From Pseudomonas sp. HN11 (GTDB lineage: Bacteria; Pseudomonadota; Gammaproteobacteria; Pseudomonadales; Pseudomonadaceae): DNA of 64,000 bases. Positions 9,732-42,374 of this stretch are shown in pieces. The stretch lies in the NCBI RefSeq assembly GCF_021390155.1, contig NZ_CP089985.1, positions 3,049,001 through 3,113,000 of the forward strand. The letters run 5' to 3'. The notes under the pieces are model-generated. The model was not told where the DNA came from, ran no database searches, and saw nothing but the letters and a program-made list of their open reading frames with translations. Every line of letters starts with the position of its first letter. Positions within the stretch are counted from its first letter, which is position 1. The position numbers and the translations under genes were made by a program.

Positions 9732-12533
<2,802 letters not shown>

Positions 12534-28890: not shown

Positions 28891-29265
28891 CTATTTGAAA
28901 AGGCCGCCAATTGCATTGATGGCGTCTGCTGCCTTATTCACGTTTTGCTGGCGCTGGGGGTTAGTGTCTACCTGTGCCTGGGCGTTGTAGCTGGGCGAGC
29001 CACAGCTTTTGTTGGTCTGCGTCAGGGCCGCTTGAAAGGCAGTAGCGCGTAGCGTATCGCCTTTGGCATTGGCCGCATTGATGTTTGCCTGCAGGTCACG
29101 GATCTGCTGCTGACAGGAGGCGGAGTTGGCGTTATTGGTGTTGTTGTTTGCTCCACCCAGCGCAGCTGAAAGAGCACCCGTCAGGGCAGTCAAGTCAGCG
29201 GCATGGGCCGACAAGGACATCAGGCTAAGGAGCGCGGCGGATGGAGCGAGCTTGGAAAGACGCAT
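28891..29265 (-). CDS. Small exported Asn-rich protein
   Basis: 124 residues from the ATG at 29265, chosen over 29277 because GAGG lies 6 nt before it. The N-terminus MRLSKLAPSAALLSLMSLSA is a Sec signal peptide, cleaved after AHA. The mature part has an Asn-rich stretch (GGANNNTNNANSASC) and two Cys (SCQQQIRDL, NKSCGSP), then helices with Gln and Ala. It is probably periplasmic and monomeric in its transcript, with its own terminator. Function unknown. Confidence 0.75.
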   Translation of the reverse strand: MRLSKLAPSAALLSLMSLSAHAADLTALTGALSAALGGANNNTNNANSASCQQQIRDLQANINAANAKGDTLRATAFQAALTQTNKSCGSPSYNAQAQVDTNPQRQQNVNKAADAINAIGGLFK

Positions 29266-29479
29266 GGCAAACCTCAATGTTTTATCGTCTGCACACGGAC
29301 GGAACCCGAGCTGGTGCAGAACAATATCCGTATAAAAGGTGGGTGCTCGGTTGCGACAAAATATTATTTGGTCATTTTTTGAGCTTCAACATTCGATTTC
29401 TCTAACTGTGAATGCCTTCACGTTGTGCGTCGATTTCCAGGCGTGAGGATCGAACGTGCCTTGGGTGGGTCAGCGTTTT

Positions 29480-29716
29480 TCAACAACGACTCGCTGCTGG
29501 CGCGTTCTCACCACCCACGGGTGCGCCGCTGACGCTGACGCGCTCGCGAATGCTTTTTTCGACGAGTGACGTGTCTAGCTCAATGGTTCTGTGAATATTG
29601 GGGTTGTCACCTCCACTTTTGGCGTCTACCCTGAAAATGTATGAATTATTACGAATTATTTCGAAGGCGCCTGTTTTCGAGGTGCGATACTCCAGGACGA
29701 GGAACGAAACATGTTT
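29480..29716 (-). other. Orphan minus-strand reading frame without start
   Basis: This 78-codon open stretch looks protein-like (GAFEIIRNNSYIFRVDAKSGG, then HRTIELDTSLVEKSIRERVS, ending APAASRC) but contains no ATG, GTG or TTG start. It may be the 3' fragment of a decayed gene at the left edge of the prophage remnant. The rest of 29,266-29,710 shows nothing else I can support. Confidence 0.35.
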
Positions 29717-29869
29717 TCACACGAAGGTCCCGCAATAGAGCTGTTGGTGTTCGTTTTTGGTTTGGCTGGCGTACTTCTGGTTGCTTGGTTTATTCACCAT
29801 CAATACGAACGCAAAGCCGGGAAAGGCGTAAAAAAACAACAAAATCGTAACGAAGGTCGCTCAGCCTGA
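29711..29869 (+). CDS. 52-residue single-pass membrane protein
   Basis: ATG 29711 preceded by GAGGAACGAAAC. It has a short acidic lead, one hydrophobic helix (LLVFVFGLAGVLLVAWFI) and a basic, Gln/Asn-rich tail ending GRSA. Its 3' end overlaps the tail of the truncated methyltransferase on the other strand. After its stop the same frame continues with a protein-like sequence to a TAA inside the left 17-bp repeat. Function unknown. Confidence 0.5.
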   Translation: MFSHEGPAIELLVFVFGLAGVLLVAWFIHHQYERKAGKGVKKQQNRNEGRSA

Positions 29870-30790
29870 GCTATCTACAAGACCGATGGCGACTTGGCGG
29901 AGGTTGATCGGGTCGACATCGCGTTGTCCGCGGAGAGTTTTGAGGTCAAAAGCCTCAGCAATGCGCTTTCTGTCAACTCGGTGGGACCGACTGACAAGCG
30001 GAAAAGATAAGGGCCTGCCCAGGTTTCCCAAGGGCCAGGAACTTTCCTCTCGATCTGGCCGGTGTGTTCCCAGTGACTGCCCAGGGATAGGTTGCTCTCG
30101 CTTTGAATCATCGCGCTTGAAACTATCCCGCTTGCTGCGCACCACTTTCATTGGGCCGTTCGACTTTCCGGGCACGCGATCACTCCCGCGCTGTTGCTCG
30201 AGATCCTGCGCCATTCGCACTATAGAGCTGAGCGCTGCAGGTTCCTTGATCGCATTCTGGTCGTAGTAATAACGTGGTGACTTGCTCAGAAGAAACAGGT
30301 ACTCGTGCGACTTTGTGCACCGGTCCTTGGTGGATTCAGGCATGGGATTCGGCTTGCTCCAGATAATGTCCTGGCGCAGATACCAACCATCATTTTGAAG
30401 GACAAAGGCCAGGCGCCACGGCATGCCCATCAGGTTTTTATCCGGGAGGCCAGTGCGTGTCCGAGTCCTGCCGATGCTGCCATCGCCATGAAGGGCTTTG
30501 ACGTGCTTGCCACCTGTCGATCCTCCCCACTTACTGTCGGTTGCATAGCTGTCGCCCATGTTGACCCAGGCTGTACCGTCATCCTGTAGTACTCGTCGCA
30601 CCTCGCGGAACACCTCGACCAGTCGCCCGATGAACTCCGCTGGTGTTTCCTCCAGGCCAATCTGGCCGTCGACACCGTAATCCCGCAACCCATAATAGGG
30701 CGGGCTGGTCACGCACATATGAACCGATTTGTCTGGCAGCGTCCGCATCGACTCAATGCAGTCGCCGATCAAGACACGATGCTGTTTCAT
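29861..30790 (-). CDS. Prophage DNA methyltransferase, C-terminally truncated
   Basis: The N-terminal ~250 residues are a site-specific amino-methyltransferase of the N4-cytosine/N6-adenine class. Visible are VTSPPYYGLRDYG (catalytic motif IV, SPPY), VNMGDSYATDSKW, the MGMPWRLAFVLQ region and IIWSKPNPMPES. Family members then have a C-terminal DPFGGSGTT SAM-binding motif. Here the sequence departs after LGNLGRP near 30,018, and the last ~50 codons look unrelated. Without motif I the product should be inactive. The start overlaps an 18-residue ORF (ATGA). The break coincides with the left 17-bp direct repeat. Confidence 0.8.
   Translation of the reverse strand: MKQHRVLIGDCIESMRTLPDKSVHMCVTSPPYYGLRDYGVDGQIGLEETPAEFIGRLVEVFREVRRVLQDDGTAWVNMGDSYATDSKWGGSTGGKHVKALHGDGSIGRTRTRTGLPDKNLMGMPWRLAFVLQNDGWYLRQDIIWSKPNPMPESTKDRCTKSHEYLFLLSKSPRYYYDQNAIKEPAALSSIVRMAQDLEQQRGSDRVPGKSNGPMKVVRSKRDSFKRDDSKREQPIPGQSLGTHRPDREESSWPLGNLGRPLSFPLVSRSHRVDRKRIAEAFDLKTLRGQRDVDPINLRQVAIGLVDSSG
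30002..30018. repeat. Left copy of 17-bp direct repeat (attL-like)
   Basis: AAAAGATAAGGGCCTGC, identical to 42239-42255 beside tRNA-Leu. It lies exactly where the methyltransferase loses homology, so it may mark the left boundary of the prophage. Confidence 0.6.
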
Positions 30791-30843
30791 GGCCTGGGCC
30801 CTCGGTAGATGAAGATGTAGGCGAACCAGAGGGTCGCGATCAT
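30787..30843 (-). CDS. 18-residue hydrophobic peptide
   Basis: ATG 30843 overlaps the stop of the upstream gene (ATGA), and its own stop overlaps the methyltransferase ATG. The peptide MIATLWFAYIFIYRGPRP is hydrophobic with a basic tail. The exact two-sided start-stop overlap suggests a genuine coupled mini-gene. Unknown function. Confidence 0.4.
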   Translation of the reverse strand: MIATLWFAYIFIYRGPRP

Positions 30844-31166
30844 GGCGTCACCTCGCGGCGTGCCCACCAGCAGACAGGGCCGTCGTCGGTGTCGTGAATG
30901 GCCAGGCAGAACCAGCCTTCGCCATCAGGCCGATCCGGCTCCCAGTAGCTGCAATCGGGGTCGCCAGCCTCGAAACGCTCAGAGACCGCTTCGTCGCTGT
31001 GGTATTCGAGTTGCACCATCTTCACCTGCAAGCCCTGTTCAGCGATCCAGGCCTTGCACTTATCACCGTCGCCCTCGTCGAAGGGCGGCATATCGGGATG
31101 AGCGAACATGCCGTATTCATCGCGCGCGACTGGAGCTGGCTGGATCAATTTGATTTCTTCAGGCAT
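30840..31166 (-). CDS. Prophage hypothetical protein
   Basis: 108 residues, acidic, with a DPDCSYWEPDRPDGEGWFCL segment and aromatic C-terminus. This kind of small acidic early protein is common in Pseudomonas prophages, but I cannot name a function. It heads a three-gene overlapping chain (this gene, the 18-residue ORF, the methyltransferase), so all three are probably translated from one message. Confidence 0.65.
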   Translation of the reverse strand: MPEEIKLIQPAPVARDEYGMFAHPDMPPFDEGDGDKCKAWIAEQGLQVKMVQLEYHSDEAVSERFEAGDPDCSYWEPDRPDGEGWFCLAIHDTDDGPVCWWARREVTP

Positions 31167-31229
31167 GACTTCGTCCTTGCCGCTATAGCGGCTGACTTTG
31201 AAGGGGGAGGGGGGCGAAAGAGTGAGGCG

Positions 31230-31430
31230 CTAATTCCAGCGAACGTTGAGTTCTGAAATTTGTTCGTGCAGCTGCTCTATGAGTTCAAACCAAGAATCGA
31301 AACCATTTGATTCGTTCTGGATCAGGAACAGGTAATAACCTCCGGTTTCACCTGCGCGGTCATCCCGAATTTCTATCGCCCAACCGGCGTATTCGCCAGT
31401 CAAAACTGTTCCAGTACGAATGATCAGCAT
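31230..31430 (-). CDS. Small prophage hypothetical protein
   Basis: 66 residues beginning MLIIRTGTVLTGEYAGWAIE, with a mixed alpha/beta appearance and an acidic C-terminal helix. It lies among minus-strand early phage genes and 64 bp before the next gene. No family is recognised and no strong RBS stands out, so the confidence is moderate. Confidence 0.55.
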   Translation of the reverse strand: MLIIRTGTVLTGEYAGWAIEIRDDRAGETGGYYLFLIQNESNGFDSWFELIEQLHEQISELNVRWN

Positions 31431-31476
31431 GGGTTGGTCGGAATCCAGTGAATGTCTTAAATGGCAGCTGTACTTT

Positions 31477-31815
31477 TTACATCAGCTTGGAAAATGTTGG
31501 TACTGCGGCATTCTCCCTCGTTACCAGTTCATGGGCATTCACAACCGTCATGCCGAGGCGTTCGGCGATCATGACTTCCAGGCGTGCACCCTTTGAATGC
31601 TCCCACCCTGGGAGAGTGGCCACGGTGTCACAGTCCATCAGCGCCGCAATGTCGCGCCGCATGCAGTCGTTCCAAGTGCCGCCGTCGGTGTTGATCTCGG
31701 CGGGGTTGGTAACGGTGTTGCCGCCGGCGCGCAGGTTGGTGGTCATGGCGTGGAAAGCGGCTAAGTTGAGGCCGGGCAGTCCGGTCATGGGACCACTGAG
31801 GTAGATGCGCTTCAT
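31477..31815 (-). CDS. DUF4406-family phage protein
   Basis: 112 residues starting MKRIYLSGPMTGLPGLNLAA, the hallmark of DUF4406 (nucleoside 2-deoxyribosyltransferase-like fold), with the later CDTVATLPGWEHSKGARLEV segment carrying the conserved GWE..SxGA motif. Members are frequent in phage early regions and are thought to act on nucleosides or nucleotides. Its start overlaps the stop of the upstream gene by 4 bp. Confidence 0.85.
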   Translation of the reverse strand: MKRIYLSGPMTGLPGLNLAAFHAMTTNLRAGGNTVTNPAEINTDGGTWNDCMRRDIAALMDCDTVATLPGWEHSKGARLEVMIAERLGMTVVNAHELVTRENAAVPTFSKLM

Positions 31816-32453
31816 GCGGCCACCTGCTGCTGTTCCTGGCGCAGCGCGTCCTGAACGGCCTCAACAACGCGGCGCAGGTATGTGAATTCGTGGTTTTCCT
31901 CGATCGCCTTTTCGTCGACTGGGTAATGCCATTCATCACCAAACAACTCGGTCAGCAGCCTGCTCTGATGCCAGCACTCATTCGGGCTTTCGATACTGCG
32001 CAATGAGTCGATGTCGTGCCAAAACTCGCGGGCCTCGCCCTTACTCAGTTCGCCCAGTTCCCAGTCGTGTCGCCCGGTCTGTTGCCGGCGGCGCTGGACG
32101 ATGCACTTCTTGGCGAAGGCATGGAGCGCGTCCCCGCTGAACCGCGTGCTACTGATCCCGCGATCCAGGCAGTTCAGAACATAGGGCCAATCGCACTTGG
32201 CCACAAACTCGGCAACCGTGCGAGGTCCCATTCCACCCCAGTAGGCGTTCCAGCTCTTGTCCCAGCAGTTGATCGTGATCTTGCCCTGGGCAGTCTGGTA
32301 GTTTGGGTCGAATTCAGTCGGGCAGTCGCGGCGACCGAAGTCCTCGAGGAAAACCGTTATCGGGTCGAGCCGCGCCGTGCCGGTGATCACCAGCTTCGTT
32401 ACTGTCGAGCGCTCAACCTTCAGCGGCTCGGCCGTTTTGTTTCCTGTGGGCAT
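31812..32453 (-). CDS. Conserved prophage hypothetical protein
   Basis: 213 residues with LDPITVFLEDFGRRDCPTEF, a WGGMGPRTVAEFVAKCDWPY segment and an acidic C-terminal helix. The INCWDKSWNAYWGGMG part is reminiscent of proteins seen in Pseudomonas siphophage early regions. Function unknown. It is translationally coupled to the DUF4406 gene (ATGA-type overlap). Confidence 0.7.
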   Translation of the reverse strand: MPTGNKTAEPLKVERSTVTKLVITGTARLDPITVFLEDFGRRDCPTEFDPNYQTAQGKITINCWDKSWNAYWGGMGPRTVAEFVAKCDWPYVLNCLDRGISSTRFSGDALHAFAKKCIVQRRRQQTGRHDWELGELSKGEAREFWHDIDSLRSIESPNECWHQSRLLTELFGDEWHYPVDEKAIEENHEFTYLRRVVEAVQDALRQEQQQVAA

Positions 32454-32516
32454 GGGAATTCTCCATGTAGCGACAAAGCTACGATTGGGATAACGTTTCG
32501 TCTTTTGGAGGTGGGA

Positions 32517-33062
32517 ATGTTCGGGATAACCGCTGAGCAGTGGGGAATCATTAACGGATTTGCAAATTGGCTGGCTGCGATTGGAACCATCTCTGCCGTA
32601 GCTGTTTCGCTCTATCTGTCCATGAAATCTGGAAAGAGGACAGCCAAGTTATCTGCGCGACTAATGCTGATGGCAGAAATTGGATCTGAATATCATCCAG
32701 AACACATAATTTTTAGTTTGGTAAATACGGGTGATCGGACGATCAATACTGATTCTATCGGTTGGGTTGTGGGGAAAAAGACAAAGCAATATTTCATACA
32801 GTTATGGGATCGTACTCTTAGTCATCCAATGCCATTAATGCAGGCTTCCGGAGTTTCGGGGAAGTGGCTATTTAATGTCGATGATGGAAGATGGTTTTCC
32901 CAAATGGCTGAGTCGTTGGGTGCGAATTGGAAAAAAGACATAAAAACATTAAAAGCTCTGGCTACAACCACTACAGGCGAAGAGTTCTTTGCTACCCCAA
33001 GCAAAGAACTTTTTGAAAAGCTGAAAGTTGCGTGCGAGCTTCGAGCCACTACTTCTGCGTAA
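32517..33062 (+). CDS. Single-pass membrane protein, probable moron
   Basis: 181 residues; RBS GGAGG before ATG 32517. One N-terminal membrane helix (FANWLAAIGTISAVAVSLYL) is followed by a cytoplasmic domain of likely beta strands (HIIFSLVNTGDRTINTDSIG). It is AT-rich and on the plus strand, inside a minus-strand early region between a DUF4406/hypothetical pair and a cytosine methyltransferase. The orientation, composition and own RBS fit an independently acquired cassette. Function unknown; superinfection exclusion or defence is conjecture. Confidence 0.75.
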   Translation: MFGITAEQWGIINGFANWLAAIGTISAVAVSLYLSMKSGKRTAKLSARLMLMAEIGSEYHPEHIIFSLVNTGDRTINTDSIGWVVGKKTKQYFIQLWDRTLSHPMPLMQASGVSGKWLFNVDDGRWFSQMAESLGANWKKDIKTLKALATTTTGEEFFATPSKELFEKLKVACELRATTSA

Positions 33063-33065
33063 TAA

Positions 33066-33989
33066 TTAGGCGGCCTTTCTTAGAGCCTCGATGATGCGCT
33101 GGCCCGCAAGCGGTGGAACTGCATTGCCAGTCATGTGCATGGTCAGCCGATGGTTGTCTGGGCGCTGCGTGTCTTTCGGGAAGGATTGCGCGGCCATGGC
33201 CTCATCGGCGGTGATCATGCGCATCCGGTCACCGTCGACCACGGCCCAGCGATCGAGGGTAGTTATGGTGCCGATAGGGCGGTCTAGGCTGCGGCCTGTG
33301 AGGCCTGACCCTGAGCCGTAATAAGGCATCACGAATCGCTCGCCGAACCGTTCCCGGCCATTCTTCACGCGGATCAGCGTCGATTCGGCACGGCCTGGCT
33401 TGATGATCGGCGACCACTTGCCGGCGTTGAAATCGATAATGTCGCTGGCCGGCACATGCTGGTGCTGCTGGAGCTGCAGGTGGAGCGGTGCCTTGCTGCG
33501 AGAGCAGACCATGAAGAGGCGCACCCGGTGCTGAGGCACGCCGAGGTCTGCACAGTCCACGATGTGCGGAGCCAGCGAGTAACCCAGGCGCTGCATCGCG
33601 TCGGCCCAGGCCGGGTAGAGAATCCAGTCCATGAACTCCGGCACGTTCTCGATGATTGCGAAGTCGGGCCTGTTGACCTCTGCATTCGCCACCGGCGCCC
33701 AGGTCGTCAAGCGCGAGTTGTCGTGCTGAGGATTGCCGGCAGCCTTGCCGCGTGCCTTCGCGTGGCCCTGACAGCAAGGAGAAGCCAGCATCACATCATG
33801 CTTTGGGACCTGCGACCAATCCGCCTGGTGCAAGTCCTGGCAGACGTGCTGTGTGTCCGGGTTGTTCCTAGTGTGCCACTCTACGGCAGCGGGCCAGTGG
33901 TTTGCAGCCCATAGAACATTGAGGCCTGCTGCCTTTCCGCCAGCAGTCCATCCGCCGAAGCCGGCAAATAAATCGATAGCTGTGAGCAT
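33066..33989 (-). CDS. DNA (cytosine-5-)methyltransferase
   Basis: 307 residues of the C5 methyltransferase family. Motif I is AIDLFAGFGGWTAG, motif IV is ASPCCQGH with the catalytic Cys in the Pro-Cys pair, motif VI is IIENVPEFMDW, motif VIII is QHRVRLFMV, and the target-recognition part is followed by MTGNAVPP (motif X region). It appears complete. No partner restriction enzyme is seen, so a phage self-protection role is likely. Confidence 0.92.
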   Translation of the reverse strand: MLTAIDLFAGFGGWTAGGKAAGLNVLWAANHWPAAVEWHTRNNPDTQHVCQDLHQADWSQVPKHDVMLASPCCQGHAKARGKAAGNPQHDNSRLTTWAPVANAEVNRPDFAIIENVPEFMDWILYPAWADAMQRLGYSLAPHIVDCADLGVPQHRVRLFMVCSRSKAPLHLQLQQHQHVPASDIIDFNAGKWSPIIKPGRAESTLIRVKNGRERFGERFVMPYYGSGSGLTGRSLDRPIGTITTLDRWAVVDGDRMRMITADEAMAAQSFPKDTQRPDNHRLTMHMTGNAVPPLAGQRIIEALRKAA

Positions 33990-34059
33990 GTGATTTCCTT
34001 TGTGATGGCGAATTGGTATCTTTTGTCTTTTATCGAACTGGATTTCAGACGTGGGTGTA

Positions 34060-34494
34060 ATGACTTTTTTCGCGGATCCGTCGTGGTGGGTCTCAGTGGT
34101 GGTCGTTGGGATAGCAATTAACTTTTTTTCCTCTTACTCTAAGGGGTGGATTGATACCGGCCTGGGAAAGCTTTCTGAGAAATGGAGGAGTTCGTCCGAT
34201 AGGAGAAAGCAAGCCCAGCAGCGCAAGATTGAAGAGCTGGCGCACAGTGAGTACTTACGAATGAAGGCTATGGGGACCGCGACTTATGTACTCATTCGAG
34301 GTGTCAGCTTTCAGGTATTGGCTCTTATTGCAATTTATATGTCCGTATCTGCAGAAAAAATGCTCGCTAAAGAGCTTTTTTTAGGAATCGGGTTTGTAGC
34401 GATAGTGTGTCTGTCCATGTCCATGGCCTCGGTAGTGACTGCTGCAAGCATTAGGAAAAATATCGAATCTGCAGATAAGATCAATCGAAGCTAA
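34060..34494 (+). CDS. Membrane protein, probable moron
   Basis: About 144 residues from the ATG at 34060; GTG 34051 is an alternative, and neither has a good RBS. Three hydrophobic segments: WWVSVVVVGIAINFF, SFQVLALIAIYMSV and LFLGIGFVAIVCLSMSMASV. Between them is a charged, Arg/Lys/Gln-rich helical cytoplasmic part. It is AT-rich and oriented against the phage early genes. Unrecognised. Confidence 0.65.
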   Translation: MTFFADPSWWVSVVVVGIAINFFSSYSKGWIDTGLGKLSEKWRSSSDRRKQAQQRKIEELAHSEYLRMKAMGTATYVLIRGVSFQVLALIAIYMSVSAEKMLAKELFLGIGFVAIVCLSMSMASVVTAASIRKNIESADKINRS

Positions 34495-34594
34495 GTGTTA
34501 TTTGTGACCTGTACTCTGCTGTTGCAGACTGGCTTGATATGGTTGATATGGGTTATTTGTTAAAGCCTCTACATGCAACTATATGGGGAACTGA

Positions 34595-35194
34595 GTGACC
34601 ATTGAAAATGTAATGCTGACCCTCAACAGAGTTCCTGAAATCGCTCTGAATACCGGCACTGATTACAAAGTGCTTGGGGGATTTTTTTTGACGGCGTTCG
34701 CGGTAGCAATCGGTTCGTGGGCCACTATCTATACGTTCAAACGTACTGTCAGGAGCCAAGAAAAAATCGCTACAGCTGGGGCCATCCGAGCAAGCAGGCA
34801 GGCTTGGATCAATGAGTTGAGAGATTGCAGTGCTAGCTATGTAGCTGCGGTATTGCAAATTTCTGACTTGCGCGGGAAGCGAACTAGGTGGTTGAAAGCA
34901 AAAAATATCCACATGGAAGAATGGCGGGCGTTTCAGTATTTTGAAACTGAGAATCCTGCTTGGGTTGAGCTATCACTAAGCGCGGTCAATGAGGCGAGGA
35001 TTTATCGTGCAAAAGTTGAGATGCTTTTAAATCCTGGGGAGGAAGCAACGGTCAATCTTCTCAAAGCAATGGATGTGGCTTACGAAAGCGAGGGGCAAAG
35101 CACCAATAATTTGCCCGATTTATGTGACGAAATTGTCAGTAGCGCCCAGAAAATACTCAAGGCTGAATGGGTTATTACAAAGCAGGGTAGATAA
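34595..35194 (+). CDS. Membrane-anchored hypothetical protein, probable moron
   Basis: 199 residues from GTG 34595 (GGGGA upstream). One N-terminal membrane helix (VLGGFFLTAFAVAIGSWATI) is followed by a long soluble helical domain (SQEKIATAGAIRASRQAWIN, then a Trp-containing middle). This resembles the many phage and island proteins with one helix and an RQAWI(N/D)xLR motif. AT-rich. Upstream is a degenerate copy of the E1 repeat (about 34,529-34,558). Function unknown. Confidence 0.7.
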   Translation: MTIENVMLTLNRVPEIALNTGTDYKVLGGFFLTAFAVAIGSWATIYTFKRTVRSQEKIATAGAIRASRQAWINELRDCSASYVAAVLQISDLRGKRTRWLKAKNIHMEEWRAFQYFETENPAWVELSLSAVNEARIYRAKVEMLLNPGEEATVNLLKAMDVAYESEGQSTNNLPDLCDEIVSSAQKILKAEWVITKQGR

Positions 35195-35248
35195 GATTTG
35201 CCCCTCAGATGCCTGATAGTTTCTATTGTTGGCAGCTTTCTCAATAGC

Positions 35249-35275
35249 CTGGCGTGATTCGTTGATATGGGGTAT
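35249..35275. repeat. Intergenic repeat E1, copy 1
   Basis: 27-bp sequence beginning CTGGCGTGATTCGTTG, perfectly repeated at 36213-36239. A diverged form lies at about 34,529-34,558. Confidence 0.9.
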
Positions 35276-35283
35276 CACGGGTA

Positions 35284-35303
35284 ACCGGCATGGAGCCGGA
35301 TCA
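35284..35303. repeat. Intergenic repeat E2, copy 1 (hairpin)
   Basis: ACCGGCATGGAGCCGGATCA, identical to 36824-36843. The core CCGGC-ATGGA-GCCGG can fold as a small hairpin. Confidence 0.9.
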
Positions 35304-35314
35304 AGGAGGAAAGA

Positions 35315-35545
35315 GTGGACAGAAAACCTTCTAATAAGCTGCTAGCAGAGCAAAGTGGACTGACCGTGGCTGAAGTCGGCACGTACTTGACGGAGCTAGT
35401 GTTGCAGCCTGACGGAAGCTGGATTGCTTACTTCGGCGCTGAAATCGAACGCTCACCAGATGCCAGCACAAAGTTGGATGCATCGCGAACGCTGTTGATT
35501 CCAGCCTGGCTTGCCAAGCACTGGGTGGATCGAGATATTGGGTAG
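35315..35545 (+). CDS. Small soluble hypothetical protein, probable moron
   Basis: 76 residues from GTG 35315 with a near-perfect RBS (AAGGAGGAAAGA). The N-terminus NKLLAEQSGLTVAEVGTYLT looks like a helix-turn-helix-type segment. It is bounded on the left by repeats E1 and E2 and on the right by repeat E3, which overlaps its stop codon. E2 and E3 are the same modules that flank the minus-strand gene at 36841. No hydrophobic segment. Function unknown. Confidence 0.7.
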   Translation: MDRKPSNKLLAEQSGLTVAEVGTYLTELVLQPDGSWIAYFGAEIERSPDASTKLDASRTLLIPAWLAKHWVDRDIG

Positions 35546-35594
35546 GCGCCGCCCTTCAGTGTCCGGTGGTGGCGATTTGGTTTTGGTTGGGGTA
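35544..35594. repeat. Intergenic repeat E3, copy 1
   Basis: A 51-bp segment beginning AGGCGCCGCCCT matches 37459-37509 without gaps at 44 of 51 positions. It overlaps the stop codon of the gene at 35315 and is followed by an E2-like hairpin variant. Confidence 0.85.
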
Positions 35595-35644
35595 TTACGG
35601 GTGAACCGCGTGGAGTCGCGCTGAATCTAAATAGGGACTGCTGA

Positions 35645-36184
35645 ATGAAATATCTTGCAGAAGTGCTTACAAAGAACCCTCTGATAGTCGTAGCAATGTT
35701 TCTGATTACATTGCTTGCCTCGATTGTTGGTCTATTAGTCAGCTGGGAAGTTCTCTATAGAGACTATCTTTCAAAAACATTTACGGTTCCGTCTTGGCTG
35801 GTGCTGCTGATTATCCCAATCGGTTTCTTCGGATGGATATTATATAGCACTCGCAAGAAGAACCAGAACGACGGACCTTTAGAGCTAATAGCCGATAGAG
35901 AATACGGTGTTGAAAGGATCTATGCGTGTGGAAAAAGGTTTTTGAACTGCAAGTTTAGCGGCACTGAAATTGTAATCGACGCTAGCTCTGGATTGAGTTT
36001 TGAGGCCTGCAATTTTGAAAATCAAAGATTCACATTTGATGGCTCTGCTGCTAGGACACTCGCTCTTTTAACCGGGATGTACAAAGATCCAAGTTTTCGG
36101 CCTATGGTCGACAGAACAATACTAAATATGAAATCTGGAGATATGCCTGTTTCCAAAGCTCCTTACTCCGGTTCTGCTCGTTGA
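35645..36184 (+). CDS. Two-helix membrane protein with Cys-Phe repeat domain, probable moron
   Basis: 179 residues; ATG 35645 with AGGGAC upstream. Two N-terminal membrane helices (LIVVAMFLITLLASIVGLLV and WLVLLIIPIGFFGWIL) precede a cytoplasmic domain with short beta repeats (KRFLNCKFSGTEIVI, then FEACNFENQRFTFDGSA). These recall pentapeptide-like right-handed coils with N/A-C-x-F turns. A conserved ARTLALLTGMYKD stretch follows. The layout of paired helices plus a sensor-like domain is seen in many phage and island proteins. Function unknown. Confidence 0.75.
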   Translation: MKYLAEVLTKNPLIVVAMFLITLLASIVGLLVSWEVLYRDYLSKTFTVPSWLVLLIIPIGFFGWILYSTRKKNQNDGPLELIADREYGVERIYACGKRFLNCKFSGTEIVIDASSGLSFEACNFENQRFTFDGSAARTLALLTGMYKDPSFRPMVDRTILNMKSGDMPVSKAPYSGSAR

Positions 36185-36212
36185 GAGTATTTGCCAGTTA
36201 GTCAAACGATGT

Positions 36213-36239
36213 CTGGCGTGATTCGTTGATATGGGGTAT
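36213..36239. repeat. Intergenic repeat E1, copy 2
   Basis: Exact copy of the 27-bp repeat at 35249-35275, 38 bp before the gene at 36277. Confidence 0.9.
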
Positions 36240-36276
36240 TAGGTAGGGTTATTTTGAGCGCTATTAGGGACAAGTC

Positions 36277-36768
36277 ATGCAGGCGCTAACGGATAATCTG
36301 TATAAGTTTCTCTCGATTGTAGGGATGATATGTTTTGTATTTTTCTTTTTTGATTTGAATAAGAGATCAGATGATCTTGAATTGAAAATTGATAGTTTAA
36401 CCATTCAACAGGTCGAGTTCTTAGCGACTCTAGACGCGATTAAGACAGATTCGAATCGCCTTTCTAAGGTTATTGCTGACCTGAATTCTGGAACGACAAC
36501 ACTCAAGAAGCTAATGGGGGCTATGCCGAGCCTGGAGGCGACTAGAGATAAGATACAGTCAAGATTTGATGAGGCAAAATTAGTAAATGCAAAACTTAAT
36601 GCTAATCTGGAATTGGTCAAAAGCTACTTTGAAAAGCTTAAAGGTCTGGCTTATCTATACGGCTGGCTGCAGTGCGTTTCATTAATAGTTGCATTTGTTG
36701 GTATGCTGTTGTGGTATTACAGAACCCAAAGATATCTAGACTTAAAGGACAAACAGTCTGTCATTTGA
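36277..36768 (+). CDS. Membrane protein with central coiled coil, probable moron
   Basis: 163 residues; ATG 36277. An N-terminal membrane helix (FLSIVGMICFVFFFFDL), a ~95-residue heptad-rich region (DLELKIDSLTIQQVEFLATL through SRFDEAKLVNAKLNANLELV), then a C-terminal helix (VSLIVAFVGMLLWYY). Both ends are in the membrane with a coiled coil on one face. The gene is very AT-rich compared with its neighbours. Function unknown; a spanin-like or exclusion role cannot be excluded. Confidence 0.75.
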   Translation: MQALTDNLYKFLSIVGMICFVFFFFDLNKRSDDLELKIDSLTIQQVEFLATLDAIKTDSNRLSKVIADLNSGTTTLKKLMGAMPSLEATRDKIQSRFDEAKLVNAKLNANLELVKSYFEKLKGLAYLYGWLQCVSLIVAFVGMLLWYYRTQRYLDLKDKQSVI

Positions 36769-36823
36769 TTGAGTGTCTTCACGGAAACAGTTATCGTATT
36801 TTCATACTGATTTATTTTGATTG

Positions 36824-36843
36824 ACCGGCATGGAGCCGGATCA
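36824..36843. repeat. Intergenic repeat E2, copy 2
   Basis: Identical to 35284-35303. Its last three bases (TCA) form the stop codon of the minus-strand gene that follows. Confidence 0.9.
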
Positions 36844-37443
36844 GGCGGTGAGGCGTTCGCCAATCACCGTGGTTGTGAACTGAATGGTGTACTCGGTGAC
36901 CAGCTCGAACGCGCCGCCGCAGGTATCGCACGTCATCTTCTTGTCACCGTAATCTTCAGACTCGATGTGGATGACCGTGGCGCAATGCGGGCATTTGCAT
37001 TCGTCCTGGCTGCGATAATCCCACTCGTCATAGTCTGTCTCGGCGACCTTGGCCAGCGCTTCGGCCTTCGCAGCGGCGTCTTCTGCGGCCTGAAAAGGCT
37101 TACAGGTGAACCCGTCAGGATGTCCCCACGGTGTTTCCGTGAGCTTCGAGCGGTGGGTGCTGCACAGGCGGCAAACGTTGTGCTTATCGCACACCACGTA
37201 GCTGTACTTCTCACCGGTTCCATTGCACTTGGCACAACCAGAAACCCAGTACCATGAGCCATCGATTCGCTCGGCGTACAGGCCGTTTTCCGGTGGCCGA
37301 AGGCTGACTTCAGGCAGGTCAGTAGTGGTTCGGTGAAATCTGTGATGATCCGCCCCGTTCCACACGTTGAGGCTGCCATTGCGCTCGCGCTGGGTCCACT
37401 CTCCCGGGATCTCCGTGATCAGGATCTTGGTGTTTTTGTCCAT
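36841..37443 (-). CDS. Zinc-ribbon-containing prophage protein
   Basis: 200 residues with several Cys pairs: CAKCNGTGE, VCDKHNVCRLC, CKCPHCAT and MTCDTCGGAF. At least two likely zinc ribbons, the last one C-terminal, are joined by an Ala/Glu helix (AAEDAAAKAEALAKVAETDY). This is a typical phage early protein that may bind nucleic acid or a host protein. It is flanked by repeat E2 on its 3' side and E3 on its 5' side. Confidence 0.75.
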   Translation of the reverse strand: MDKNTKILITEIPGEWTQRERNGSLNVWNGADHHRFHRTTTDLPEVSLRPPENGLYAERIDGSWYWVSGCAKCNGTGEKYSYVVCDKHNVCRLCSTHRSKLTETPWGHPDGFTCKPFQAAEDAAAKAEALAKVAETDYDEWDYRSQDECKCPHCATVIHIESEDYGDKKMTCDTCGGAFELVTEYTIQFTTTVIGERLTA

Positions 37444-37458
37444 GGATTATCTCCAGTC

Positions 37459-37509
37459 AGGCGCCGCCCTACGGTGGCCGGTGGTGGCAATTTGGCTTGG
37501 GTTGGGTTA
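37459..37509. repeat. Intergenic repeat E3, copy 2
   Basis: 86% identical to 35544-35594, placed between the minus-strand zinc-ribbon gene and the plus-strand gene at 37553. Confidence 0.85.
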
Positions 37510-37552
37510 AACAGGTGTCGGCAATTTGCCACTAACAGATGGAGCTGAAAGC

Positions 37553-38023
37553 GTGGAAAAAGCAGATTTTGACTACGACTATGACCAATTTCGTGGTGAG
37601 TTGAACAAGGTGACATATGCGTACAAACGCATAAAAGACAAACTTATGCAGAATTTTGAGCATTGGAAGGAGCTCGGCCCAAAATTTCTCAGCGATCAAC
37701 TCTCTGTAGAGGTCGGAAAGGATGGTGAAAGTGTCGCCGGCGTCGTCGTCGGCAAGCGTTTCTCCATCTCTTTAACGCCTCTAGCGATAGAAAATGATAA
37801 CTACGCTCTTGCCGTTCTAACCACTGTCAATTTAGTAAGTAAGCTTCCTGTAGAGATTGATCGTTTCCTCGTATCGATAAACGGGGATGTTCTATCTATG
37901 GAAAGAGAGATGCTTTTGGACTGGGATAACGAATATCAGAGCCTAAAGCTGTTGGTCGCTGTGGCTCGGCGCGTCATTCGAGCCGATTCGGTGCCTGTAC
38001 AGTCTCGTCTCCCGGCTCCCTAA
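37553..38023 (+). CDS. Hypothetical soluble protein, probable moron
   Basis: 156 residues from GTG 37553 (GGAG upstream); a TTG at 37526 is less likely. An acidic aromatic start (ADFDYDYDQFRGELNKVTYA) leads into helices, then beta-rich sequence (KRFSISLTPLAIENDNYALA, LPVEIDRFLVSINGDVLSME). No membrane segment. Its 3' end overlaps the opposite-strand gene at 37974. AT-rich; unrecognised. Confidence 0.65.
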   Translation: MEKADFDYDYDQFRGELNKVTYAYKRIKDKLMQNFEHWKELGPKFLSDQLSVEVGKDGESVAGVVVGKRFSISLTPLAIENDNYALAVLTTVNLVSKLPVEIDRFLVSINGDVLSMEREMLLDWDNEYQSLKLLVAVARRVIRADSVPVQSRLPAP

Positions 38024-38312
38024 TCAACTCGCGCATACTATCGCTGTAGAATTTACGCGCCACGTTTTCGCTAATAACGATTTCGTGGCGCGGATAACGT
38101 AAGAACGCGATCAGCTCGTCGTCGGGCATCAAGTCCATCTTCATGATGGCGATCTGCAGGACCTCGCTGATGATCGGCACCTGGCCGCGAAGCCGGATAC
38201 GCTCCATGGCCTGCTCGATTCCGGGCCTGACCTTGTGCCGCAATTCCTTCTCGGCGACCGCCAGCCGCTTCTGCGCAGCCTTGGCCGATCTTTCCTGCAC
38301 AGTCTTGGCCAT
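37974..38312 (-). CDS. Prophage hypothetical protein
   Basis: 112 residues, strongly basic N-terminus (AKTVQERSAKAAQKRLAVAE), then ISEVLQIAIMKMDLMPDDEL and a C-terminal helix. The pattern suggests a small nucleic-acid-associated early phage protein. No family assigned. The last ~50 bp overlap the 3' end of the plus-strand gene at 37553. Confidence 0.65.
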   Translation of the reverse strand: MAKTVQERSAKAAQKRLAVAEKELRHKVRPGIEQAMERIRLRGQVPIISEVLQIAIMKMDLMPDDELIAFLRYPRHEIVISENVARKFYSDSMRELIREPGDETVQAPNRLE

Positions 38313-38381
38313 GACCTACCTCTTCTATTCCGCTGGCCGGCAGTGCTAGCCAGGTTTGTCGTTTGCGTTGCTGGATACGGG

Positions 38382-38975
38382 CTATGCGACGCATGAGGTG
38401 CTTCCACGCCGCGCTTTTGGGTAGTCGATGCCGTGGGTGGTGATGATCCGCTCGAAGGCCTTATTGCCGATCGCCAGCTTCCCGCAGCACTGGCGCCGGG
38501 TAATGCCCAGCTCCAGGAAGGCCTTGATTCGCTCGGCGAGCTTGGCGTCGCGCGCTTCGTCAACTTCCTTGCGCACCAGGTTCCGTGCACCTCCGCGGGT
38601 TGGCGCCTTGAACGTGATGTCGTACCGCGCGGCGTAGTTGTAGATCAGCCGCCGACTGACACCAAGCTCGGCGGCCACCTCGGTCTGGGTGAGTGTTACG
38701 CCCAGCTGGCGTATCTGCTCAGCCAGCTCAAGCCGGTCCTGTGATCGGATGTCGGTCTTGTCGAGGGGGAGGGGATTCGCTTCAACCTTGCGCCGAACGA
38801 ATGGCTTCGGCGGTGGCGGCATATGGTTGCTGTAGGTGATGGGCTTGGGCTTATAGTGGTATGGCTCGGCTACTTCGATCTTGCCGCCGGCCGCAACAAA
38901 CTCAGCGATCTGATCGGCCAGCTCATTGGATTTTGGCCGAAGCGCCTCTACCAGGCTTAGGTGGTTGCTGATCAT
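38382..38975 (-). CDS. Phage protein with HTH domain
   Basis: 197 residues with an N-terminal helical part, a Pro/basic linker (HMPPPPKPFVRRKVEANPLP) and a central helix-turn-helix (GVTLTQTEVAAELGVSRRLIYNYAARYDI). A second HTH-like unit (LELGITRRQCCGKLAIGNKAFE) follows. It is probably a DNA-binding regulator or replication accessory. Its start overlaps the stop of the ATPase fragment by 4 bp. Confidence 0.75.
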   Translation of the reverse strand: MISNHLSLVEALRPKSNELADQIAEFVAAGGKIEVAEPYHYKPKPITYSNHMPPPPKPFVRRKVEANPLPLDKTDIRSQDRLELAEQIRQLGVTLTQTEVAAELGVSRRLIYNYAARYDITFKAPTRGGARNLVRKEVDEARDAKLAERIKAFLELGITRRQCCGKLAIGNKAFERIITTHGIDYPKARRGSTSCVA

Positions 38976-39529
38976 GCTGACTGCCTCGCTTTGTTCAGTT
39001 CAGCCTTACGGATATCCTTCGCGGCGACCAGTGCCGGCTTGAGGCTGTCGAATCCGTGAACGATTACGCGGCCGGCGTTGTAGGCCGACTCAAGTGCCGC
39101 CATGTCCACCGCCTGATGGATATCGGCGATAGCATCCACCAGCAGTTCTTTGGCGCGATCCTCTGGATTCAAACCGGAGTTCAGCCACGCCAGAAGGCGG
39201 CGACCGGTGTCAGCGCTGATCAGCTCAGGTTGATCGAACAGCTTCGTCCGGTCCTTGCTGGCCGTGGCTGTGTGGCCGTCATGGGTCAGGTCCAGCACCA
39301 CGGTGAATTCGTAGTCGGTGCCGTCGCGCTGCTCGGACTTCATGCCCAGCTTGAGGATCTTCTTGCCCTCGCCTTGAACCGTCTCAGTCTTGCTGCGCAT
39401 GGTGCAGATGATGTGCATCGAGCTGGTGAGGATCTTGTCCGTCAGCTTCCGGTGGCGCGGCGTGGTCTCGTTCCAGGCCGCCCAGGTGTTGCCCCGGAAC
39501 TTCTGGTGGGCCACGGTCTCATTCTGCTC
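38972..39529 (-). pseudogene. Phage recombination-type AAA ATPase, 3' fragment
   Basis: About 185 C-terminal residues of a RecA-like phage ATPase (Sak4-like/AAA_24). Visible are NTWAAWNETTPRHRKLTDKI, HIICTMRSKTETVQ and GTDYEFTVVLDLTHDGHTA, then SKDRTKLFDQPELISADTGR. The N-terminal Walker A and B portion is missing. Homology stops at EQNET (39,529), where an opposite-strand head-tail adaptor fragment begins. Confidence 0.8.
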
Positions 39530-39532
39530 TAG

Positions 39533-40003
39533 GCATCCCCCGGAAGCTACGCGAGCGCCGAGGACCTGGCCCTGTATGCCGTGAAGTTCGGCACGGTCAT
39601 CCCTGCGGGCGCTCCCGAGCAAGAGGCGTTGCTGCGCCGGGCCGCCTTGGTGATGGATGGCATGACCTGGAAGGGGCGCAAGACCCGCAGCGAGCAGGCC
39701 TTATCCTGGCCGCGCCGGGAAGTTCTGCTGGATCAGGAGATCAAACCGAACAACTACCTTCCGGCGCGCATCCAGTACGGCCAGATGGCCCTGGCCGCTG
39801 AGATCCATCAGGACGACATTGACCCCATCGACAAGCGAAAGGGTGCTGTGACGCTGGAGCGCGTCGAAGGTGCTGTAACCCGCGAATACGCGACGATTTC
39901 CAACACCAGCAATCGGCTATTGCCAGCGGCACCTGATCGACCGAGCGCTACGCAGTTTGCCGACTATCTGCAAAAGCGCGGGCTGTTCGCAGTGCGCGCG
40001 TAA
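39533..40003 (+). pseudogene. Head-tail adaptor (DnaT-like), 5'-truncated
   Basis: The frame reads PGSYASAEDLALYAVKFG, then EALLRRAALVMDGMTWKGRK and ALSWPRREVLLDQEI, the pattern of phage DnaT-like head-tail connector proteins. The first ~10 residues are missing, and an in-frame TAG stands at 39,530-39,532 at the deletion junction. A GTG at 39,581 could start a shortened product of 140 residues. Confidence 0.75.
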
Positions 40004-40038
40004 TGGTAGCTTTGTGCCTTCATCAAGTGGAGGTAATT

Positions 40039-40245
40039 ATGGCGACGATGCTTTTTGGCAATGACACGGGTACTTGGGATGAGTTTGCAGCTTCTGCACT
40101 CAATGCTCTGATCATTAAGGGGGACTATTCATTGGCGCAAGCCGCAGCGAAGGCCGCCGAGGCAGCTGACCAGTTGCTGCTTGAGCGTAAAGCACGAACT
40201 GATGCCGCCAATGAGTACCAGTTCGGTAAGTCTGCGTCACGCTAG
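40039..40245 (+). CDS. Small phage structural-region protein
   Basis: 68 residues from ATG 40039 (GGAGG 5 nt upstream). Ala-rich and helical (LAQAAAKAAEAADQLLLERK). It lies between the adaptor fragment and the next head-tail gene; small proteins of this kind are common at this place in lambda-like siphophages. Function unknown. Confidence 0.7.
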   Translation: MATMLFGNDTGTWDEFAASALNALIIKGDYSLAQAAAKAAEAADQLLLERKARTDAANEYQFGKSASR

Positions 40246-40268
40246 CCATTATTAAAATTGGAGCCACC

Positions 40269-40637
40269 ATGGCCTTTTACGATGAAATGGCCGTGATGGC
40301 TCTGGAGATGATCACAGAGTTCGGCCAGCCCGTGACCATCAGCAAGACGGTGCCGGGCGAGTACGACCCTGAGACGGGCGGCGAAGCGCCGGGCGCAACC
40401 GTCGAGCAAACAGCCCAAGGCATCCTGCTCGACTTCACCGGCATCGAATTCCAAAACAATAGTCTCATCAAGCAGGGCGATAAGAAGCTCAAGATCGCCG
40501 CGCAGGACATGGCCTGGGTGCCGGATCTGCTCGACAAGGTCGTTGCCCAAGGCCGCATCTGGTCAATCGTCCCTCCACTGAAAGAGATCAATCCCGCCGG
40601 CACGCCGATCCTGTATGAGCTGCAGGTGCGGTCGTGA
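40269..40637 (+). CDS. Phage head-tail joining protein
   Basis: 122 residues, a typical size for head closure/stopper proteins. It has the MALEMITEFGQPVTISK start and the DLLDKVVAQGRIWSIVPP and TPILYELQVRS end typical of Pseudomonas siphophage head-tail proteins. Position between the adaptor and the gp10-like gene fits. The stop overlaps the next start. Confidence 0.8.
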   Translation: MAFYDEMAVMALEMITEFGQPVTISKTVPGEYDPETGGEAPGATVEQTAQGILLDFTGIEFQNNSLIKQGDKKLKIAAQDMAWVPDLLDKVVAQGRIWSIVPPLKEINPAGTPILYELQVRS

Positions 40638-41230
40638 GCCGCGCAGCCGCCGGACAGTCCGGAAGTTTCGCCCTAAGCCTGGCCGAGTTCGCCGCCCAAA
40701 CCAGCGAAGCCATCGACACCAGCGTGCGCGAGATCATCATCGAGGTCGGCAGCAGCCTGATTCGGATGTCTCCCGTGGGTAATCCGGAGATCTGGGCGCA
40801 GAACGCTGTAGCTACTGAGTACAACAAGGCTGTCGACGAGCACAACAGCACGCTGCGCAGCGATCCCGCTAACCTGACCAAGGGCGGCAGGCTCAAGAAG
40901 GGCCGCAAGCTCAACGACGGCATGGATATCGTCGCGCCGGAAGGCTACGTAGGCGGCCGGTTCCGTGCGAACTGGCATATCTCGCTGGGCGTTGTCGAGA
41001 GCGTCACCTTCGACGAGGTGGACCCAAGCGGTGCTGAAACTACCGCTGCGCTAGTCGCCGCGATGAGCGATTTCACTGCCGGCCAGATGGCCTACATCAT
41101 CAACAATTTGCCCTATGCGATTGAACTGGAGTTTGGTCACTCGACCCAGGCGCCCGGCGGCATGGTTCGGGTAACCGTGGCTCGCTTTCAGCAGATCGTG
41201 CTGGAGGCCATCAGGAACAACCAGGTATGA
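40634..41230 (+). CDS. HK97 gp10-like phage protein
   Basis: 198 residues. The N-terminal helix (LAEFAAQTSEAIDTSVREII), SSLIRMSPVGNPEIWAQNA and RFRANWHISLG, and the final LPYAIELEFGHSTQAPGGMV are the recognisable features of gp10-like neck proteins. It overlaps both neighbours by 4 bp, so head-tail genes are translated together. Confidence 0.85.
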   Translation: MSRAAAGQSGSFALSLAEFAAQTSEAIDTSVREIIIEVGSSLIRMSPVGNPEIWAQNAVATEYNKAVDEHNSTLRSDPANLTKGGRLKKGRKLNDGMDIVAPEGYVGGRFRANWHISLGVVESVTFDEVDPSGAETTAALVAAMSDFTAGQMAYIINNLPYAIELEFGHSTQAPGGMVRVTVARFQQIVLEAIRNNQV

Positions 41231-41643
41231 GTCACGCAATCATCGCCTCGATTTACGAGGCAAAGCTCATCGCCTGGAACGCTGCCAGGTCGGAGAAGCT
41301 GAAGATCGTGTTCGAGAACACGGCCTACGCGCCCGCTGAAGGCGAAACATACCTGCGTGCCTTCACCATCCCTGGCGATACCGCTAGCAACACGCTCGGC
41401 GGTGATCACCGGCTGTACACCGGCGTGTTTCAGGTGAGCATCATCGCGCCGGCGGGAAGCGGCAAGACCAAAACAAACCCGGTTGTGGCCGAGTTGACGG
41501 CCCTGTTCCCGCTATACGCCCATGACACGAAGGCTACGCTCACCGTGGTAACCATGTCGCCAGTTGACCCTGGGCCAGGCATCACCGGCGATTCCACCTA
41601 TGCCGTCTCGGTCTCGTTCTTATATCGAGCCGACACCAATTGA
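41227..41643 (+). CDS. Phage tail terminator-like protein (DUF4128)
   Basis: 138 residues; YLRAFTIPGDTASNTLGGDH followed by YTGVFQVSIIAPAGSGKTKT matches the DUF4128/tail-terminator pattern. It follows the gp10-like gene in the normal head-to-tail order. It is the last clearly complete virion gene in the remnant. Confidence 0.85.
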   Translation: MSHAIIASIYEAKLIAWNAARSEKLKIVFENTAYAPAEGETYLRAFTIPGDTASNTLGGDHRLYTGVFQVSIIAPAGSGKTKTNPVVAELTALFPLYAHDTKATLTVVTMSPVDPGPGITGDSTYAVSVSFLYRADTN

Positions 41644-41695
41644 GCGGCATCGCGCTAGAATCGATGCACGTATATGGGTAGGTAGGGGGGATACC

Positions 41696-41956
41696 ATGGA
41701 TGAAGATACAAAGGCACGATTGCAGTGGCTGGATGAATCTGCCGACGATCACGGCTGGAACAACCGAGACGAGATTAGTGCCAGCGAAAGGTGCATCTGC
41801 ACTGCCTGCGGACAATGGTCTACTCCGAGTCAAATTACGAGGTGGTATCTGGAAAAGCATGCCTGCTGCCCTTCCTGCGGCCTTACCGGCGTAGTTGTTG
41901 GTTCCAAGTCTGGGCTGCCGCTTGAGGCTTACGAAAACTGTCGTATTCCTGAGTAA
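41696..41956 (+). CDS. Zinc-ribbon small protein
   Basis: 86 residues from ATG 41696 (GGGGG upstream). Two Cys pairs (CICTAC and CCPSCG) about 30 residues apart form a probable single zinc ribbon. It lies between the tail terminator and the tail-tube fragment with its own terminator downstream. Possibly a moron or regulatory protein; unrecognised. Confidence 0.65.
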   Translation: MDEDTKARLQWLDESADDHGWNNRDEISASERCICTACGQWSTPSQITRWYLEKHACCPSCGLTGVVVGSKSGLPLEAYENCRIPE

Positions 41957-41986
41957 CTAAAAATTCGCCCATTGGGCAACCCCAAA

Positions 41987-42010
41987 GACCCGCCATCGAG
42001 CGGGTTTTTT
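41987..42010 (+). terminator. Intrinsic terminator
   Basis: ACCCGC, CATCGA loop, GCGGGTTTTTT, 31 bp after the zinc-ribbon gene and before the tail-tube fragment. Confidence 0.85.
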
Positions 42011-42034
42011 CATATCTGCAAAGAGGAAATACCC

Positions 42035-42172
42035 ATGGGCTACAAAATCCCGAACGGCGGTACTTTTCAGCACGCCGCCACGTACGCTGCGGCTCTGCCA
42101 TTTGGCCTGGAGGCGCCCAGGCGTCTCTCGATAGAGCATTGCCGGGTTAGTGGAGTTCGGTTGGAGTTATGA
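42035..42172 (+). pseudogene. Phage tail tube protein, 5' fragment
   Basis: ATG 42035 has a good RBS (GAGGAAATACCC). The first ~20 residues (MGYKIPNGGTFQHAATYAAA) match the start of Pseudomonas siphophage major tail proteins, then homology is lost near 42,095 and the frame ends after 45 residues. The rest of the tail module is absent. Confidence 0.65.
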
Positions 42173-42237
42173 GCGGTTAACTATCGGCAGGACGCCGGAG
42201 ATGGGAATTGCGGAACAACTTACAAAAATTGCGGAAC

Positions 42238-42277
42238 AAAAAGATAAGGGCCTGCATGAAGTTCATCATGCAAGCCC
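42238..42277 (-). terminator. Intrinsic terminator of tRNA-Leu
   Basis: On the minus strand the stem GGGCTTGCATGA / TCATGCAGGCCC (12 bp with one wobble) is followed by TTATCTTTTT. Confidence 0.85.
42239..42255. repeat. Right copy of 17-bp direct repeat (attR-like)
   Basis: AAAAGATAAGGGCCTGC, identical to 30002-30018. It lies in the 3' half of the tRNA-Leu terminator. Two ATTGCGGAACAA copies sit just to its left (about 42,207 and 42,229). Confidence 0.6.
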
Positions 42278-42287
42278 TTGATATCGT

Positions 42288-42374
42288 TGGTGCCCGAACC
42301 CGGAATCGAACCGGGACGCCCTTACGAGCGGGGGATTTTAAGTCCCATGCGTCTACCAGTTTCGCCATTCGGGC
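42288..42374 (-). tRNA. tRNA-Leu (anticodon UAA)
   Basis: 87-nt type II tRNA. The acceptor GCCCGAA pairs with TTCGGGC, the anticodon loop CTTAAAA has TAA, there is a long variable arm (CGCTCGTAAGGGCG), and the encoded end is A-CCA. Confidence 0.96.

Follow-up and report, generated by a model that had tools for sequence, protein, structure and literature searches.

A shared leader module precedes varied accessory genes of temperate Pseudomonas phages and may double as a recombination border

Organisation of the gene array

The window analysed here is a stretch of 64,000 nucleotides (nt) of Pseudomonas sp. HN11 (NZ_CP089985.1, positions 3,049,001–3,113,000), and our subject is an array of short genes on its plus strand, located amid the minus-strand early genes of a prophage. 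A first-pass annotation had noted three repeats between these genes, all of which were found again in the window: E1, an exact 27-bp repeat (35249 and 36213), E2, an exact 20-bp repeat (35284 and 36824), and E3, which spans 51 bp at 86% (35544 and 37459). They are pieces of a single leader module of about 61 bp. From left to right, this module consists of a left half of type A or type B, a 15-bp core (TGGGGTATTACGGGT), a hairpin with a 5-bp stem, a Shine-Dalgarno sequence and a start codon. The consensus sequences of types A and B have TGGC and the 15-bp core in common, at equal spacing, and the conserved boxes are TGGC, a 17-nt spacer and TATTAC. With moderate confidence, we regard the module as a portable expression leader and, at the same time, a recombination border for accessory genes of temperate Pseudomonas phages.

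The five plus-strand open reading frames (ORFs) were located where they had been placed, with the reservation that the ORF listed for the gene at 37553 begins upstream, at 37526. The region is AT-rich, as had been claimed, with a guanine-plus-cytosine (GC) content per kb of 0.43–0.53 over 34–38 kb against 0.52–0.65 elsewhere in the window. At the left end lies a diverged type-A left half (34530–34556, plus strand, as are all modules and cassette genes of the array), previously listed as a third copy of E1; it is recognisable by eye (TGGCTTGATATGGTTGATATGGGTTAT), although the profile search, at E 0.5, did not pick it up. It is followed by an ORF for a putative membrane protein of 199 amino acids (34595–35194), which has 19 homologues, the named ones being hypothetical proteins. 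The complete type-A module (35248–35308, profile match E 2.2e-19) contains TGGCGT (35250–35255), a 17-nt spacer, TATCAC (35273–35278), the hairpin (35285–35299) and the Shine-Dalgarno sequence, with a GTG at 35315. The gene starting there (35315–35545) encodes a soluble protein of 76 amino acids with a weak hint of a helix-turn-helix (Pfam HTH_36, E 0.028, below the cut-off); its family of five members stands behind A and B modules alike.

The first E3 copy, from 35544, contains a nearly complete type-B module with a variant hairpin (35567–35621, E 4.6e-11), followed by a gene for a protein of 179 amino acids with two predicted transmembrane helices (35645–36184), the carboxy-terminal part of which resembles phrog_26297 (no assigned function, E 5.9e-10). 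Next comes a type-A left half (36213–36241, E 6.5e-5), and the gene behind it (36277–36768; 163 amino acids, two predicted transmembrane helices) has a 5′ leader of its own; its homologues stand behind a type-A left half in locus L010 and a type-B left half in locus L062. Repeats do occupy the gaps between the plus-strand genes, as the first-pass annotation had stated, but the second copy of E2 precedes no such gene: this type-A right half (36822–36847, E 4.7e-5) abuts the 3′ end of a minus-strand early-operon gene located within the array (36841–37443; 200 amino acids, phrog_27543, no assigned function, E 4.9e-63). The array ends with a diverged type-B module (37459–37528, the second E3 copy, matched by the profile over 37482–37528 at E 1.1e-4) and a gene for a soluble protein of 156 amino acids (37553–38023), whose family recurs behind modules of loci L057, L069, L119, L127 and L140. 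Three of the five genes had been said to carry membrane helices; a hydropathy script finds two in each of the products of 35645 and 36277, while for 34595 there is an obvious hydrophobic stretch, judged by eye only.

In an alignment of 49 matches, taken from 40 fetched regions and the window, 24 have left half A, 17 have left half B and eight have others, two of which resemble chance matches. Exact copies of E1 are present in 17 stretches of genome contigs, all from Pseudomonas; in 13 of these E1 continues with TACGGG, mostly followed by the hairpin CCGGC-ATGGA-GCCGG and a start codon, and the genes behind differ. As the reversed sequences of 106 loci gave no profile match at all, chance can be excluded as the source of the module matches.

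Spread and position of the module

Matches to the type-A query were obtained in 104 of 298 Pseudomonas genomes, and to the type-B query in 136 of 398; the two samples overlap, and both include the window's own genome. With the type-B query, none of 273 genomes from other genera of the same class is matched, and a plasmid search made with the type-A module gave no match. Type B is found in 20 phage records, many over the left half only, and type A in 7, some phages being counted twice under two accessions; all are Pseudomonas phages or unnamed phage records. IMG/VR contains 50 stretches with a 25-base type-B pattern and at least 120 with a 19-base core. At E 0.01 or better, modules are present in 103 of 106 searched loci, a share that is no frequency since the loci were fetched around matches, and also in 159 viral loci, and 119 gene families stand behind them. 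The module is thus neither confined to this window nor always followed by the same gene, either of which would have spoken against an exchange array. A literature search did not find the stem sequence, nor any title or abstract describing the module, and the passages on promoters and repeats in the papers on phiAH14a and PseuP_222 describe no such element.

The following counts refer to the 103 loci, phiAH14a itself excluded. An integrase homologue is present in 39 of them, on the opposite strand in 38 and at a median of 6 kb to the left; an exonuclease homologue in 23, always on the opposite strand and at a median of 2.2 kb to the right; and an ERF homologue in nine, also always on the opposite strand, at a median of 2.8 kb to the right. 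The strand and place of these three genes locate the array within, and opposite to, the early left operon. Modules within one locus share their direction, with one exception among these loci (L165) and none among the 159 viral loci. Two-module loci have the order AB in 21 cases, BB in five, BA in three and AA or aA in two, while the window's array, ABAaB, has five modules, the most of all. In 14 of 100 cases, more than for any other left neighbour, the gene to the left of the modules encodes a nucleoid-associated protein (NdpA/YejK family, PF04245, E 9e-84).

Hairpin and promoter-like signals

A Watson–Crick stem of at least five pairs is present in 89 of the 127 unique right halves, compared to 7.2% of shuffled ones, and in a fixed register all five positions pair in 75 of the 127. 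The 64 stems that deviate from the consensus have 176 paired cells out of 320; shuffles average 140, and none of 2000 reaches 176, kinship between the sequences being ignored. The calculated folding z-score is −2.59 for the consensus leader and −1.83 for the type-A leader of the window. The stem is followed by GATCAAGGAG, a Shine-Dalgarno sequence, and the start codon lies 4–8 nt past the module in 88 of 111 cases. No T run follows the stem in the consensus, so it is no terminator. Terminator-like sites between 32 and 38.6 kb are no commoner than in shuffled sequence, and the hexamers at TGGC and TATTAC do not match the sigma-70 consensus.

From its strand, start spacing, hairpin and upstream boxes, the module would fit a 5′ leader whose promoter is weak or depends on activation: TGGC, 17 nt and TATTAC would form a promoter-like element, the 5-bp GC hairpin would lie near the presumed start of the mRNA, and the Shine-Dalgarno sequence precedes the start codon. 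Because they are parts of such a leader, the repeats are not only borders. Sigma-54 and heat-shock sigma patterns, compared by eye only, do not fit. A leader of the RsmA/CsrA kind was likewise considered and rejected as too loose: of 114 hairpins, 67 have an ANGGA loop and 41 carry both the loop and the Shine-Dalgarno motif. It is improbable that the AUGGA loop and the CAAGGAG Shine-Dalgarno sequence form a double site of the RsmA/RsmE type that places the array under Gac/Rsm control.

The stem is also an inverted repeat in the DNA, and the module could accordingly be, in the main, a phage operator bound by a regulator, with the exchange of adjacent genes as a by-product; the 11 of 134 full modules without a plus-strand gene, where a leader would lack its cargo, are in agreement with this. 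The loop and stem at a fixed distance before a Shine-Dalgarno sequence and start codon suit a leader better, and we give the operator little credence.

Break points of similarity

Deduplication kept 161 of 170 sites, as some of the named loci repeated sampled genomes. Their comparison gives 200 pairs with just the left flank in common, 92 with just the right flank and five with both. In the left-sharing pairs, identity stops at +10 to +49 in 178 of 200, for the most part in two groups: 68 pairs break right after the −10-like box (+10 to +19) and 104 around the end of the Shine-Dalgarno sequence (+30 to +49). Of the right-only pairs, 27 begin to match within the module or close to it, and 65 match only from +140 or beyond, these having a downstream gene in common and not the cassette. 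Extending the comparison to 3 kb on each side, for the 113 pairs that could be judged and counting from −80, shows similarity reaching a median of 831 bp leftwards and 117 bp rightwards, and stopping at +10 to +50 in 102 pairs; in 56 left-sharing pairs it returns within 3 kb to the right.

To provide a control, we determined for 50-bp bins the fraction of alignments coming in from the left that go no further. This rate is 0.75 (237/316) for the module bin, 0.36 (178/493) for the bin before it, 0.22 (22/98) for the bin after it and 0.076 for 97 other bins pooled, the highest of which reaches 0.218; alignments between overlapping segments of one locus are included. The conserved module may stretch alignments by tens of bases, which shifts ends but creates none. 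In pairs with the same cassette and different left types, matching starts at +4 to +11 in nine of nine. This is where the shared core begins and types A and B become alike, so such a start is expected once the left halves differ, but the nine pairs show whole left halves exchanged, and not hybrids.

Two other explanations bear on this pattern. The leader may be kept by purifying selection while the genes behind it turn over by illegitimate recombination, without homologous exchange; breaks would then cluster at the leader because inserts that lose it fall silent and are lost. Breaks in two functional groups, such as those described above, would also be expected from selection on signals. Recombination between modules is the simpler account of the whole left halves swapped behind the same cargo and of tandem cassettes with full modules between them, in the window and in L010, and we consider selection without homologous exchange rather unlikely. 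These same tandem stacks of single-gene units, together with the hairpin in the module, resemble site-specific, integron-like insertion of cassettes, in which the hairpin would be the recombination site. That is highly improbable: the hairpin precedes the gene, in its 5′ leader, whereas integron cassettes have an attC site at the 3′ end, together with an IntI integrase; the break points are spread from about 0 to +50; and the integrase seen near arrays, at a distance of about 6 kb, is homologous to that of phage phiAH14a.

Genes behind the module

Among the 134 full modules, 104 precede an ORF with a Shine-Dalgarno sequence, as defined by a set rule, and 16 an ORF without one; 11 run into the 3′ end of a minus-strand gene and three have neither. 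ORFs were taken by rule, from a start near the module, rather than by a gene finder, and some are antisense to a minus-strand gene, for example in L081 and L118. Those shorter than 40 amino acids or classed minus3 were dropped, while those without a Shine-Dalgarno sequence or behind half modules were kept. The resulting 144 ORFs of at least 40 amino acids form 90 families, 63 of them singletons, and 34 of the 144 have a predicted transmembrane helix. In the viral set, 159 of 168 stretches yielded 211 unique modules (137 with an ORF preceded by a Shine-Dalgarno sequence, 58 full modules without one and 16 left halves), the 137 ORFs forming 69 families. Combined, the two sets contain 281 ORFs in 119 families, 37 families being common to both; the sets are not fully independent, as IMG/VR includes prophages of sequenced isolates. 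Families were built by single linkage at E 1e-4, which can divide a family when its proteins are very short, making the family numbers upper bounds. Of 54 multi-member families, 31 stand behind both left types. The mean GC content of the cargo is 0.505, against 0.549 for the left flank, and is lower in 81 of 111 cases (Wilcoxon p 8e-8).

A domain scan was made of 94 cargo proteins, one for each of the 90 families plus four others from the window, and most cassettes are without a known domain. Pfam gave 13 families and PADLOC 10, each by one protein, and nine of the ten PADLOC families trace to five proteins, the weak match PDC-S67 being untraced. These five are a TIR protein in L139 (just below the Pfam cut-off, PADLOC TIR-TM E 3e-56), a protein with putAbiC and AbiP matches in L055, an NYN protein in L138, a DUF2971/PDC-S31 protein in L057 and a RelA_SpoT/PDC-S33 protein in L067. 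The family matches of these five genes, all in relatives, are what suggests a possible anti-phage function of the cargo. The window's own cassettes have no convincing Pfam or PADLOC match, and homologues of three of them are unnamed or called hypothetical proteins, apart from one relative of 36277 called an antiporter. Enrichment of defence genes among the cargo is not claimed: the 46 left-neighbour genes that were covered, out of 47 representatives, match 116 PADLOC families, against 10 for the cargo, and the best 25 of the 116 are all methyltransferases.

Comparison with known systems and interpretation

Promoter early stem-loops (PeSLs) of T4-like phages are reportedly the subject of work by Arbiol (2010) and Comeau (2014), which is cited in PMC4503421. 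They are repeated intergenic cassettes of a promoter and a stem-loop, at which genes are shuffled between relatives. Shuffling of genes at the module is seen here too, and the module is best read as a temperate-phage analogue of the PeSLs, the nearest concept known. The PeSL stem-loop acts as a terminator, whereas the module's stem precedes a Shine-Dalgarno sequence in a 5′ leader and has no T run; PeSLs belong to T4-like myoviruses, the module to temperate Pseudomonas phages with integrases, and its cassettes sit opposite the early operon. With the terminator and the host group differing, we do not file the module as a PeSL, even if it seems to work like one.

Morons of lambdoid phages are extra genes of different base composition, located between conserved phage genes and provided with their own expression signals. 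In a general way the term describes the genes inserted here. The cassettes are similar in that their presence varies, with the same left flank and different right flanks (200 pairs against five), and in that their GC content is unlike that of the left flank. They differ in having one leader common to unrelated genes and acting as repeated slots; morons are not known to have either property. Boundary sequences of lambdoid phages are short conserved sequences at gene borders where mosaic exchange takes place, whereas here an entire leader, linked to the gene behind it, forms the border. The SAS and ESAS repeats of cluster K mycobacteriophages lie beside the start codons of varied gene families, contain AGGAG and mostly have one orientation; SAS is a 13-bp sequence (GGGATAGGAGCCC), and the inverted repeats of ESAS are not thought to form RNA hairpins (PMC3203893). 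GGGATAGGAGCCC is not the module consensus, the resemblance is in position only, and the host phages are a different group.

Taken together, comparison of the loci shows one module with a preferred strand and place, variable genes behind it, breaks within it and a maintained hairpin. From this we infer promoter activity, expression in the lysogen, homologous recombination and a role of the cargo in exclusion or defence. Each copy would start one small accessory gene opposite the leftward early operon with integrase, exonuclease and ERF genes, and the gene could act unhindered in the lysogen, with opposition setting in on induction. As many prophages carry the same leader, it would also serve as a border: recombination within it would swap or stack the gene behind, while the neighbouring phage genes stay. 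Phage annealing recombinases would probably aid this process; relaxed recombination is attributed to such proteins, and short shared patches suit it. Of the exchange array first proposed, the fixed borders and variable genes (119 families behind modules) hold, with the difference that the repeats are parts of one leader.

Several observations weigh against a portable leader of this kind. The type-B leader of the window has a folding z-score of +0.49, no better than shuffles. A sigma-70 scan of 32–38.6 kb gave three promoter-like sites compared to a shuffle mean of 5.7, and the only one overlapping a module, at 36226 in the half-module at 36213, uses hexamers other than the TGGC and TATTAC boxes. 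The modules that run into the 3′ end of a minus-strand gene (11/134) start no cassette, and the plus-strand ORFs 32517–33062 and 34060–34494, near the window's array, have no visible module upstream. L165 has modules on both strands (7667–7725 and 10230–10291). Finally, the ERF homologue is present in only nine of the 103 loci, few for an annealing recombinase that would accompany most arrays.

If the leader does mark sites of exchange in prophages, it would provide a simple handle for new exclusion or anti-phage genes (find the leader and read the next gene), and a tractable case, outside the T4-like phages, for asking whether a shared expression signal drives mosaic evolution. A more far-reaching idea, which we put forward tentatively, is that temperate Pseudomonas phages have a dedicated, recombinase-fed docking platform. 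Its two slots, A mostly preceding B, would lie within and opposite to the early left operon, and the portable leader would provide immediate expression of any captured gene in the lysogen. More than 100 families would then pass through the slots, which would amount to a catalogue of undescribed superinfection-exclusion and anti-phage genes.

Neighbouring features

To the left of the array, the early operon contains a gene for a C5 cytosine DNA methylase (33066–33989, minus strand, Pfam E 9.7e-36), and to the right a gene matching phrog_5439 (37974–38312, minus strand, E 1.2e-25), which overlaps the end of the last cassette. The ORFs 32517–33062 and 34060–34494 are AT-rich, lie amid minus-strand early genes and have relatives in L065 and L010. 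An Rfam scan of the window at gathering thresholds gave nothing beyond two tRNAs. The prophage, at about 29000–42300, appears truncated: the early-left genes are directly followed by a few plus-strand ORFs resembling head-tail genes by eye (39581–41643), and these by a tRNA-Leu (42288–42374).

Among the relatives, the NdpA/YejK-family left neighbour (L054, 8704–9732, and relatives) is unusual for the early operon of a phage. In phages phiAH14a and UFJF_PfDIW6 (L118, 5718–5943, and L120, 7769–8001), the module runs into the 3′ end of a minus-strand gene and has about 200 bp of unannotated DNA on its left, so these may be empty slots. In phage Cruim01 (L122, 6001–7434), a type-B left-half match adjoins an annotated retron-type reverse transcriptase and a misc_RNA on the minus strand.

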